Below, piece after piece: positions 2,589 to 47,766 of a stretch of DNA of 52,704 bases; the stretch's first letter is position 1; every line of letters starts with the position of its first letter. Source of the stretch: Ignavibacteriota bacterium (GTDB lineage: Bacteria > Bacteroidota > Ignavibacteria > UBA10030); assembly GCA_022616555.1 (NCBI GenBank), contig JAKEEG010000028.1, forward strand, positions 1-52,704, in the 5' to 3' direction. The position numbers were made by a program, and so were the translations under genes. The notes under the pieces are model-generated. The model was not told where the DNA came from and made no database searches. It saw only the letters and a list, made by a program, of their open reading frames with translations.

Positions 2589-2617
2589 TTGCTCTTTAGT
2601 TGAAAATTTTGTATGTT
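2589..2617 (+). promoter_or_regulatory. Promoter of the metH leader
   Basis: TTGCTC at 2589-2594, 17 bases, TATGTT at 2612-2617. The predicted transcript starts near 2624, at the first stem of the SAM-II aptamer, which supports both calls. Confidence 0.6.
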
Positions 2618-2620
2618 TAT

Positions 2621-2679
2621 TACGTGGTGATTTGAGCCGACAGCTTGCGGCCACGTAAAATAATCGCTAAAGCGTCGCC
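2621..2679 (+). promoter_or_regulatory. SAM-II riboswitch aptamer upstream of metH
   Basis: The segment carries the hallmarks of the SAM-II (metA motif) aptamer in order: P1 strand ACGTGG (2622-2627), the conserved TGATTTG (2628-2634), GCTTGC (2643-2648), the returning P1 strand CCACGT (2651-2656), an A-rich stretch, and GCTAAA (2666-2671). A pseudoknot pairing CGAC (2638-2641) with GTCG (2674-2677) sits where SAM-II places P2. SAM-II is known from Alphaproteobacteria and Bacteroidetes ahead of methionine genes, which fits metH here. The call is by eye; a covariance search was not possible. Confidence 0.85.
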
Positions 2680-2696
2680 CTAAGAAATGCATCTCT

Positions 2697-2729
2697 ACCC
2701 GGCGTCGCTCACGCTGGGTTTTTTGTTTT
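2697..2729 (+). terminator. Intrinsic terminator, expression platform of the metH riboswitch
   Basis: A 9-bp stem (2697-2705 with 2711-2719, one G-T pair) and a 5-base loop run into TTTTTT. It lies between aptamer and coding region. AGCGT at 2671-2675, partly within the pseudoknot strand, can instead pair with ACGCT at 2711-2715 in the terminator's 3' arm, giving a plausible antiterminator. SAM binding would then favour termination and lower MetH. Confidence 0.75.
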
Positions 2730-2739
2730 CTACGCCGAA

Positions 2740-2768
2740 GTACGACGCATGTTCGACATGCGTCGTAC
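2740..2768 (+). repeat. Perfect 12-bp inverted repeat before metH
   Basis: GTACGACGCATG (2740-2751) and its exact complement (2757-2768) flank a 5-base spacer. It falls 11 bases before the metH ATG and could be an RNA hairpin that limits ribosome access or an operator for a dimeric regulator. Confidence 0.7.
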
Positions 2769-2779
2769 ATATACGACCT

Positions 2780-5700
2780 ATGCCTAAATCCTTTCTCGAC
2801 ATATTAAAAGAAAAAATCGTTGTCTACGACGGTGCGACCGGAACACATCTGCAGGAGCAAAACCTGACGCCGGATGATTTTGGCGGCGAGCACCTTGCCG
2901 GGTGCAACGAGTACCTCGTCGTCACAAAGCCTTCTGCTGTCGAGAACGTCCACCGCGACTATCTCGAAGCAGGTTGCGACGTCATTGAGACGAATTCCTT
3001 TGGCTCAACCAGCATCGTGCTTGCTGAATACGGCCTCCAGGACAAAGCTTACGAGCTCAACTACAAAGCAGCGCAGATTGCCAAACGTATGGCGTCGGAT
3101 TACTCGACGAACGGCAGGCAGCGTTTCGTTGCCGGCTCGATGGGTCCAACGACAAAGCTTCCTTCGCTCGGTCACATCGGTTTCAAGCAGATGGCGGAAG
3201 CGTATTACGAGCAAACGAAGGGGTTGGTCGAGGGTGGCGCTGATTTGCTCAATATCGAAACATGCCAGGATATACTCCAGACAAAAGCAGCTCTGTACGG
3301 GATATTTGAGTATTTCGAATCTGTCAAACGGCGTGTGCCAGTGGTTGCATCAGTCACTATCGAAACTGTTGGCACGATGCTGCTTGGTACGGAAATCTCG
3401 GCAGCGCTGACTTCGCTCGAACCTTACGATATCGACGTTTTTGGGATGAACTGTGCCACCGGACCCAAAGAAATGTCCGAACATGTGCGGGTACTTTCGT
3501 CCAGCAGTCCCTTGCCCATTTTTGTGATGCCCAATGCAGGCTTGCCGGAAAACATCGGAGGCCATGCGCATTATCATCTCAGTCCCGAAGAGTTGGTACA
3601 GTATCTCTCGCATTTTGTCAAGGATTTAGGTGTTAGCATTGTCGGCGGTTGCTGCGGCACAACGAAAAAGCACATCCGCCAGCTTGTTGAGGCTGTAGGC
3701 GGGCTTTCGCCTCGTGAGCGCAAATATGAATTTACCCCGGCTGCTTCGAGCTTGTACCAGCCGGCGCCATTCCGAATTACGCCGCCGCCGGTGTTCGTCG
3801 GTGAGCGGACAAACGCCAACGGCAGCAAGCTCTTCCGTGACCTCCTGAGCCGAGAAGATTGGGAAGGGATTGTCGCGATGGGACGCGAGCAGGTCAAAGA
3901 ACAGGCGCACATGATAGATGTGTGCGTCGCGTACGTCGGCAGGGACGAAGCACGAGACGCTCGGGAGGTCGTTTCGCGTTTCAATACGCAGGTGACTGTG
4001 CCGATGACCATTGATTCGACCGAGCCGCCGGTAATAGAAGAAGCGCTTCAGCGCATCGGTGGGAAGGCAGTGGTGAACTCCATCAACCTCGAAGACGGGG
4101 AGGAGCGCCTGAAACGCATTGTCACGCTGTGTAAGAACTACGGTGCGGCAGTGATTGCGCTGACCATCGACGAGAAGGGCATGGCGAAGAAAGCTGAACA
4201 TAAGCTTGCCATCGCCAAACGAATTTACAGTCTTACGATCGAAAAATACGGCATGAAGCCGCACGATTTGATTTTTGACACACTCACATTTACGCTTGGT
4301 TCCGGGGATGAAGAATTTCGCCGCGCAGGTCTCGATACGATCGAAGGCATACGGCTGATTAAAAAGGAATTTCCTGAAGTCCATACAATTTTGGGAGTCA
4401 GCAACATTTCGTTCGGCCTGGCACCAGTAGTGCGCAACGTACTCAACAGCGTCTTCTTGCATTACGCGGTAGAAGCCGGGCTGGATATGGCTATTGTCCA
4501 TGCCTCGAAAATCATGCCGCTCTATAAGATTGACGAGCGGGGAAGGGAGCTTTGCAGGCAGTTGATTTTCGATGAGCGGAAGTTCGAGGGCGAGGGTGAA
4601 AACCGCAAGGTAGTGTACGACCCGCTCACAGAACTGATGGCTTATTACTCGGACAAGAAAACCGAAACCAAGAAGAAGTCGGTAGTTAAAGGCGACACGG
4701 TTGAAGAGCGGTTGAAGAATAGGATTATCGATGGCGAGCGAGTAGGCTTGCAGGCGGATTTGGATGATGCGCTGAAAAAACACCCTGCGCTCGACATTAT
4801 CAACACAATTTTGCTTGATGGGATGAAAGTGGTGGGCGAGTTGTTTGGCTCCGGACAGATGCAATTGCCGTTTGTTTTGCAGTCTGCGGAAGTAATGAAA
4901 GCCGCTGTCGCTCATCTAGAACCACACATGGAAAAAACCGAGGGCTCTCAGAAGGGCACCATGGTGATTGCAACCGTTAAAGGCGACGTGCACGATATTG
5001 GGAAAAATTTGGTCGATATTATCCTCACCAACAACGGCTATAAAGTGATAAACCTCGGCATCAAGTGTCCTGTGGAAACCATGCTGCACGCCGCCGAGGA
5101 GCACCAGGCGGACGCCATCGGAATGAGTGGTTTGTTAGTGAAATCCACGCTCGTGATGAAGGAAAACCTTGCCGTGATGAACGAGAGGAATATCGACATT
5201 CCGGTGATTTTGGGCGGAGCCGCGCTGACGCGGCGGTACGTGGAGCAAGACCTTCGCTCGGTCTATAACGGCAATGTGCTGTATGCGAATGATGCATTTG
5301 ACGGGCTTTCGTTGATGGAGAAAATCATTTCGGGGCAGCTAGAGCAGGCGCCGCTTACTGGCGATGAATCCATTGAAGCAGAAGAGGAAGTCCTCACCGG
5401 TGCGGAAGCAAAGATTGCATTGGCGATGGCTGAGGATGTCCACTATAGCAAGGACAACGGCTCCCTGAAGTCTGACGTTGCAGTGTTAGAGGTACCAAAG
5501 CGCTCGGCAGTGAAAATTGATGTGCCGATTCCAACTCCCCCGTTTTGGGGAGCGAAAATTGTTGAAGACATTTCACTCGATGAGACATTCCAATACGTTA
5601 ACGAAATCGCTCTCATTCGCGGGCAGTGGCGTGTAGTGCGCGGAAAGTTGAGCGAACAAGAATACCAGAAAGTTCTGAAAGAGCAAATTTATCCGGATCT

Positions 5701-6325
5701 CGAGAAGCTGAAATCGAAGGTCGCAGCTGAGAAACTGCTGGAGCCAAAGGTGGTGTATGGGTATTTCCCCTGCCAATCGGATGGCAACGAACTTATTATT
5801 TACAACGATGCACAATCATCATCGGAACGACTACGGTTTTCTTTCCCGCGTCAACAGCATAAACCGTATTTATGCTTAGCGGACTACTTTGCACCAATTG
5901 ACTCCGGAAGAGTCGATGTGGTGGCATTTCATCTTGTGACTGTGGGAAGAAAAGCGTCTGATTATTCAAGGAAACTCTTTGAATCCAATCAATATAAAGA
6001 CTATCTTTATTTCCACGGACTAAGCGTGGAAAGCGCTGAAGCGATGGCCGAGCTATGGCACAAGCGCATTCGCGAAGAGCTGGGCATTGCCGGCAACGAT
6101 GCGAAAGAAATTCGTAAACTGTTTAGCCAGGGTTATCAAGGCTCGAGATACAGCTTCGGTTACCCTGCATGCCCGAATCTTGAGGACCAGGCAAAACTGT
6201 TTGAGTTGCTCCAGCCGGAGCGTATCGGGGTTGAGCTGACAGATGAGTTTCAGCTTGTGCCGGAGCAATCCACAAGTGCAATAGTTGCCCATCATCCTGA
6301 AGCACGGTATTTTAATGTGAAATAA
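2780..6325 (+). CDS. metH: Cobalamin-dependent methionine synthase MetH
   Basis: 1181 residues, close to the usual length. It transfers methyl from methyltetrahydrofolate to homocysteine through cobalamin. Domains in order: homocysteine-binding barrel (about 1-310) with zinc ligands Cys225, Cys291 and Cys292 (GGCCGT); pterin-binding domain (about 335-600, VGERTNANGS); B12 cap and Rossmann domains (about 640-870) with DVHDIGK, axial ligand His738; and a reactivation domain (about 900-1181) ending in the RYSFGYPACP region. The start at 2780 (MPKSFLDIL) is preferred over an ATG at 2687, which lies upstream of the terminator and would translate the riboswitch platform. Regulation is expected through the SAM-II riboswitch. 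Confidence 0.97.
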   Translation: MPKSFLDILKEKIVVYDGATGTHLQEQNLTPDDFGGEHLAGCNEYLVVTKPSAVENVHRDYLEAGCDVIETNSFGSTSIVLAEYGLQDKAYELNYKAAQIAKRMASDYSTNGRQRFVAGSMGPTTKLPSLGHIGFKQMAEAYYEQTKGLVEGGADLLNIETCQDILQTKAALYGIFEYFESVKRRVPVVASVTIETVGTMLLGTEISAALTSLEPYDIDVFGMNCATGPKEMSEHVRVLSSSSPLPIFVMPNAGLPENIGGHAHYHLSPEELVQYLSHFVKDLGVSIVGGCCGTTKKHIRQLVEAVGGLSPRERKYEFTPAASSLYQPAPFRITPPPVFVGERTNANGSKLFRDLLSREDWEGIVAMGREQVKEQAHMIDVCVAYVGRDEARDAREVVSRFNTQVTVPMTIDSTEPPVIEEALQRIGGKAVVNSINLEDGEERLKRIVTLCKNYGAAVIALTIDEKGMAKKAEHKLAIAKRIYSLTIEKYGMKPHDLIFDTLTFTLGSGDEEFRRAGLDTIEGIRLIKKEFPEVHTILGVSNISFGLAPVVRNVLNSVFLHYAVEAGLDMAIVHASKIMPLYKIDERGRELCRQLIFDERKFEGEGENRKVVYDPLTELMAYYSDKKTETKKKSVVKGDTVEERLKNRIIDGERVGLQADLDDALKKHPALDIINTILLDGMKVVGELFGSGQMQLPFVLQSAEVMKAAVAHLEPHMEKTEGSQKGTMVIATVKGDVHDIGKNLVDIILTNNGYKVINLGIKCPVETMLHAAEEHQADAIGMSGLLVKSTLVMKENLAVMNERNIDIPVILGGAALTRRYVEQDLRSVYNGNVLYANDAFDGLSLMEKIISGQLEQAPLTGDESIEAEEEVLTGAEAKIALAMAEDVHYSKDNGSLKSDVAVLEVPKRSAVKIDVPIPTPPFWGAKIVEDISLDETFQYVNEIALIRGQWRVVRGKLSEQEYQKVLKEQIYPDLEKLKSKVAAEKLLEPKVVYGYFPCQSDGNELIIYNDAQSSSERLRFSFPRQQHKPYLCLADYFAPIDSGRVDVVAFHLVTVGRKASDYSRKLFESNQYKDYLYFHGLSVESAEAMAELWHKRIREELGIAGNDAKEIRKLFSQGYQGSRYSFGYPACPNLEDQAKLFELLQPERIGVELTDEFQLVPEQSTSAIVAHHPEARYFNVK

Positions 6326-47691: not shown

Positions 47692-47766
47692 GGGCGCTTA
47701 GCTCAGCTGGTTCAGAGCGTACGCCTCACACGCGTAAGGTCGTAGGTTCGATCCCTACAGCGCCCA
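47692..47766 (+). tRNA. tRNA-Val (anticodon CAC)
   Basis: 75 bases folding as a full cloverleaf: acceptor GGGCGCT / AGCGCCC, D stem GCTC / GAGC, anticodon stem TACGC / GCGTA with loop CTCACAC, and T arm GTAGG TTCGATC CCTAC. The anticodon CAC reads GUG. Discriminator base A; CCA is not encoded. A perfect 8-bp hairpin at 47787-47803 follows. Confidence 0.96.

Follow-up and report, generated by a model that had tools for sequence, protein, structure and literature searches.

The metH locus

The window analysed here is the whole 52,704-nucleotide stretch of contig JAKEEG010000028.1 from an Ignavibacteriota bacterium. It carries on its forward strand metH (2780..6325), which encodes a cobalamin-dependent methionine synthase of 1181 amino acids. 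The assignment comes from Pfam domains (S-methyl_trans, Pterin_bind, B12-binding_2, B12-binding, and Met_synt_B12), and the nearest named MetH sequences, at 67–75% identity, are from Ignavibacteriales and Ignavibacteriae MAGs, which places the host in this section of the Bacteroidota. An in-frame upstream ATG at 2687 was considered as the start and rejected, as comparison with relatives backs 2780. A thioredoxin-like gene on the same strand ends at 2573, and the metH leader follows it.

An earlier sequence-only reading had assigned 2589–2768 to a riboswitch. Its riboswitch parts are borne out below, while the right end (2740–2768) is a separate element: a 13-bp perfect inverted repeat, GTACGACGCATGT-TCG-ACATGCGTCGTAC, located past the terminator and ahead of the metH start. 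A genome search found no other copy of this palindrome. In some relatives (G402 and G399) hairpins likewise stand immediately ahead of the start codon; their sequences are unlike that of the 2740–2768 repeat.

The SAM-II aptamer

The same reading had placed a SAM-II aptamer ahead of metH and suggested an Rfam covariance search to check it. Scanning the whole window gave two matches above the Rfam cut-offs, a tRNA at 47692 and a full-length SAM-II match (RF00521) at 2614–2690 on the forward strand. The latter scores 50.9 bits (E = 1.4e-8) against a curated gathering score of 36 bits, so the search came out clearly in favour of the aptamer. It is the sole copy, as an Rfam search of the same genome found no second RF00521 element elsewhere. 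The window scan gave no above-cut-off match to the SAM-II long loop model (RF01726).

The RF00521 alignment and pair counts across fifteen leaders place the P1 hairpin at 2622–2656 (+), where 2622–2628 pairs with 2650–2656; the helix is lengthened by pairs U2620–A2658 and U2621–A2657. The P1 loop contains the 5′ strand of the P2 pseudoknot, CGAC (2638–2641, +), which pairs with GUCG at 2674–2677, and 91.7% of P2 cells are paired in the fifteen leaders. The core segments GAUUUG, GCUUGC, and CGCUAAAG agree with the SAM-II consensus letters in the RF00521 alignment. With its covariance score, P1 and P2 around a conserved core, and a methionine/SAM gene (metH) downstream, 2614–2690 is by sequence a SAM-II riboswitch aptamer, and this copy would be expected to bind SAM.

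Promoter and terminator

A Bacteroidota-type promoter stands at 2589–2619 (+), with TTG at 2589–2591 (TTGC in full), a gap of 20 nucleotides, and TATGTTTA at 2612–2619, giving the pattern TTG-N20-TAnnTTT. A generic sigma-70 scan of the window did not list it; the TTG / TAnnTTTG combination is the Bacteroidota promoter type, which such a scan overlooks. Among the twenty-four leaders in which we tested the pattern, eighteen are from two families of the same order, and sixteen of these have TTG-N19-21-TAnnnT in the same place before P1 (shuffles: mean 0.9, maximum 4). The promoter proposed in the earlier reading is thus shared by most of these relatives, and the transcript is expected to start at or just before P1.

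Downstream of the aptamer, a terminator pattern scan identified a hairpin at 2697–2719, with nine pairs (2697–2705 with 2711–2719) and a five-base loop, followed by UUUUUUGUUUU; with its U tract, this intrinsic terminator occupies 2697–2730 (+). The scan is expected to return 0.8 terminator-like sites per 700 bases by chance. The call nevertheless holds because every readable leader of the family has the same hairpin in that position and the hairpin's stem covaries. In the family, a terminator-like hairpin is present in all eighteen of the readable metH leaders with SAM-II, 14–48 nucleotides past the GCUAAA motif and mostly 28–33, and the stem covariation score in fifteen leaders is 0.356, compared with 0.248 when shuffled (0/500). 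The alignment of relatives' metH leaders that the sequence-only reading had recommended therefore upholds its promoter and terminator alike. The hairpin could instead end transcription of the thioredoxin-like gene, which lies upstream on the same strand, but a conserved promoter and aptamer intervene and the distance from aptamer to hairpin is kept in relatives, and we give this explanation practically no credence.

A predicted antiterminator

Folding of growing transcripts points to an antiterminator that joins the aptamer to the terminator. Its 5′ arm is the switch strand AGCGUCGCC (2671–2679, +), which includes the P2 3′ strand, and its 3′ arm is GGCGUCGCU (2701–2709, +), inside the 5′ arm and loop of the terminator. 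The duplex has eight pairs around one U–U mismatch at −14.8 kcal/mol, a value equalled by 0.3% of letter shuffles. In transcripts ending at 2708–2717 the antiterminator has a probability of about 1, and the terminator replaces it at 2718–2719. We mimicked the SAM-bound state by keeping the P2 and binding-core strands unpaired; the terminator then forms from 2714–2716 and is near 1.0 from 2716. For the full-length leader without ligand, equilibrium favours the terminator by about 2 kcal/mol (−31.2 vs −33.1). With so small a difference, and with the terminator preferred, control would be kinetic.

On this modelling, 2671–2679 with 2701–2709 is the likely antiterminator, and it is longer than the strand first proposed. 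The overlap of an antiterminator with the P2 strand had been correctly anticipated, while the strand given for it, 2671–2675, covers only half of the likely one. That proposal named no partner; on our reading the partner would be 2711–2715, in the terminator 3′ arm, and we rejected this pairing given its −1.8 kcal/mol, an ensemble probability of zero, and no excess in relatives. Another candidate, the register seen in the family (2672–2677 with 2700–2705), is possible in the window at −4.2 kcal/mol and is outcompeted by 2671–2679/2701–2709.

We compared each P2-side strand with its own and with swapped terminators in fifty-two aptamer–terminator units drawn from the class-level and phylum-level samples. 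Paired with its own terminator 5′ arm, the strand averages −7.97 kcal/mol, compared with −6.53 (sd 0.29) for the arms of other units (0/5000 permutations). For the terminator 3′ arm in the same fifty-two units, own pairing was not better than swapped (z = −0.5). Since relatedness inflates the permutation test, we repeated the comparison family by family. Own pairs beat both within-family and cross-family swaps in f1, f2, f3, f6, and f14; in f13, f40, and f57 they were not better than cross-family swaps. A helix of at least five pairs is kept in seventeen of eighteen leaders of the window's family (shuffles: mean 3.4, maximum 8), and the antiterminator helix is weak at a small number of loci in relatives (L142 and some in f13 and f40).

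In the family register, a pair-count test found that antiterminator pairs covary no more than shuffles do (219/500), since the P2 strand shows almost no variation. Only the purines G and A occur at position 2702, in step with a change of the terminator partner between C and U, and both can pair with U2675, an invariant base in the P2 strand. Support for the putative antiterminator is a matter of complementarity and such one-sided changes.

Distribution among relatives

We searched for RF00521 in phylum, family, order, and class samples. Matches at E ≤ 0.001 occur in 14 of 32 family, 29 of 98 order, and 62 of 391 class genomes. The Rfam model overlooks some elements: metH leaders read directly show the core and a terminator in five further family members (G404, G395, G396, G419, and G240). 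Several other family genomes, such as G399, G398, G414, G004, G228, and G410, had no SAM-II before metH when their leaders were read, and the family has therefore seen gain or loss of the element. The genes behind SAM-II in relatives look like members of the methionine and SAM pathways: metH (by BLAST) and, as judged by eye, metK-like, sulfhydrylase-like, and aspartokinase-like genes.

Several relatives have leaders of other builds. At L028 (G413) and L030 (G420) the loop that connects P1 to the GCUAAA motif contains additional, inserted hairpins. At three loci of the order (L010, L103, and L112) a gene with imperfect inverted repeats on both sides lies between the SAM-II terminator and metH. 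It looks like an inserted element, and its product is presumably a four-helix-bundle protein like those of 23S intervening sequences, a name we gave from the letters only. In f14, SAM-II precedes the N-terminal part of MetH at L006, L118, and L124, and a gene beginning at about residue 605–613 of MetH at L007, L117, L119, L120, L122, L125, and L127; methionine synthase may be split in this family, with one switch per half.

Tandem aptamers were found in other families of the class (L004, L123, L129, and L130). The second aptamer of L129 appears translational, with AAGGAG just past the core and a metK-like gene next. In f2, from the same order as the window, four loci (L106 in G448, L107 in G449, L109 in G447, and L113 in G444) apparently have three SAM-II-like aptamers before a sulfhydrylase-like gene of the metY/metZ type. 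Two aptamers about 50 nucleotides apart without an intervening terminator are followed by a terminator and then by the third aptamer; Rfam gave no score to the middle aptamer, which is a variant. The consulted portion of a 2022 tandem survey has SAM-II doublets only (PMC9481103).

Proposed mechanism

We consider it very probable that the leader is a SAM-II OFF switch that controls metH by transcription attenuation. The terminator lies downstream of the aptamer, and the antiterminator is predicted to exclude the aptamer fold as well as the terminator. RNA polymerase would begin just ahead of P1. At low SAM, pairing of 2671–2679 with 2701–2709 would sequester the terminator 5′ arm and metH would be transcribed. 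Bound SAM would fix P2 and should exclude the antiterminator, because 2671–2679 includes the P2 3′ strand at 2674–2677. Hairpin 2697–2719 would then fold and transcription would stop near 2720–2730, so metH is probably off when SAM is plentiful. The model builds on the aptamer, promoter, terminator, mutual exclusion of helices, and conservation in relatives established above, to which it adds presumed SAM binding by this copy and termination that would depend on SAM.

The terminator might instead be a constant attenuator or a source of small RNA, uncoupled from SAM, with the riboswitch acting on translation or RNA stability. We modelled this alternative on the proposal for the metA leader terminator of Sinorhizobium meliloti, where a terminator past SAM-II worked in either medium and prediction gave no antiterminator driven by SAM (PMC9373788); the slight equilibrium preference for the terminator in the window would suit it. 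Here, however, there is a specific conserved antiterminator in which the P2 strand pairs with the 5′ arm of the terminator. Furthermore, S. meliloti metZ, with a predicted terminator-type SAM-II, yields on Northern blots a short RNA (RZ) whose size matches the predicted termination product, at higher levels when SAM is high (PMC9373788). Uncoupled attenuation is therefore unlikely in the window.

Direct control of translation, with the ribosome-binding site hidden by the P2 strand, is the view drawn from the metX structure (PMC10907184), and locus L128, from another family, fits it, with an aptamer directly before the start codon and GGAG in the P2 region. In the window, P2 is about 100 nucleotides upstream of the metH start at 2780 with the terminator between, and the P2 strand has neither GGAG nor any other Shine-Dalgarno-like sequence. 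Direct occlusion would place a ribosome-binding site close to the start codon and inside the P2 3′ strand, and the window has none there. Shine-Dalgarno sequences are largely absent from Bacteroidota, according to the part of PMC6847099 consulted. A translational switch is very improbable here, and attenuation by a terminator that would depend on SAM is the reading we prefer.

Comparison with known SAM-II systems

The sequence-only reading regarded a transcriptional platform as unusual for SAM-II. This was mistaken, as SAM-II elements with terminators have been known since 2005 (PMC1273637, PMC2258182). The translational view derives chiefly from structural work on the metX element, and a recent review based on that structure presents the class in this way (PMC10907184). 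Corbino et al. (2005) already described a near-consensus promoter just before P1 and, in many representatives, intrinsic terminators between P2 and the ORF, and noted SAM-II in the Bacteroides group (PMC1273637). Among papers naming both Ignavibacteria and riboswitches, we found none devoted to the subject by title and abstract.

The leader resembles these terminator-type elements (RF00521; PMC1273637; Barrick and Breaker 2007, PMC2258182) in having a promoter before P1, a single stem plus pseudoknot, and a terminator before a methionine-pathway ORF. It differs from them in its Ignavibacteriales-like Bacteroidota host, its Bacteroidota-type promoter, and an explicit antiterminator backed by relatives. 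With S. meliloti metZ it shares a predicted SAM-induced terminator, though the gene and the phylum are different (PMC9373788). Like the tandem SAM-II and SAM-II/SAM-V riboswitches with terminators already catalogued (PMC9481103), it has a first aptamer followed by a terminator; unlike them it has one aptamer, while tandems are present in related genomes. SAM-II long loop (RF01726) shares its ligand class and core, and the window falls below the cut-off of that model.

Structural papers for the most part describe SAM-II as a translational switch, so a clean terminator-type case is useful for a direct test. Assuming that it responds to SAM as predicted, the leader also provides a defined RNA switch by which SAM controls metH in an uncultured Ignavibacteriales-like lineage. 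Whether SAM-II in this class of Bacteroidota acts mainly co-transcriptionally, with the terminator 5′ arm tracking the P2 strand, we judge to be evenly balanced; if so, the class would offer a natural set for studying kinetic competition between a pseudoknot aptamer and an antiterminator. Set against the known systems, the leader is a sound further example of a known device whose arrangement has long been described, and the useful refinement, at the level of sequence, is the explicit candidate antiterminator with support from relatives.
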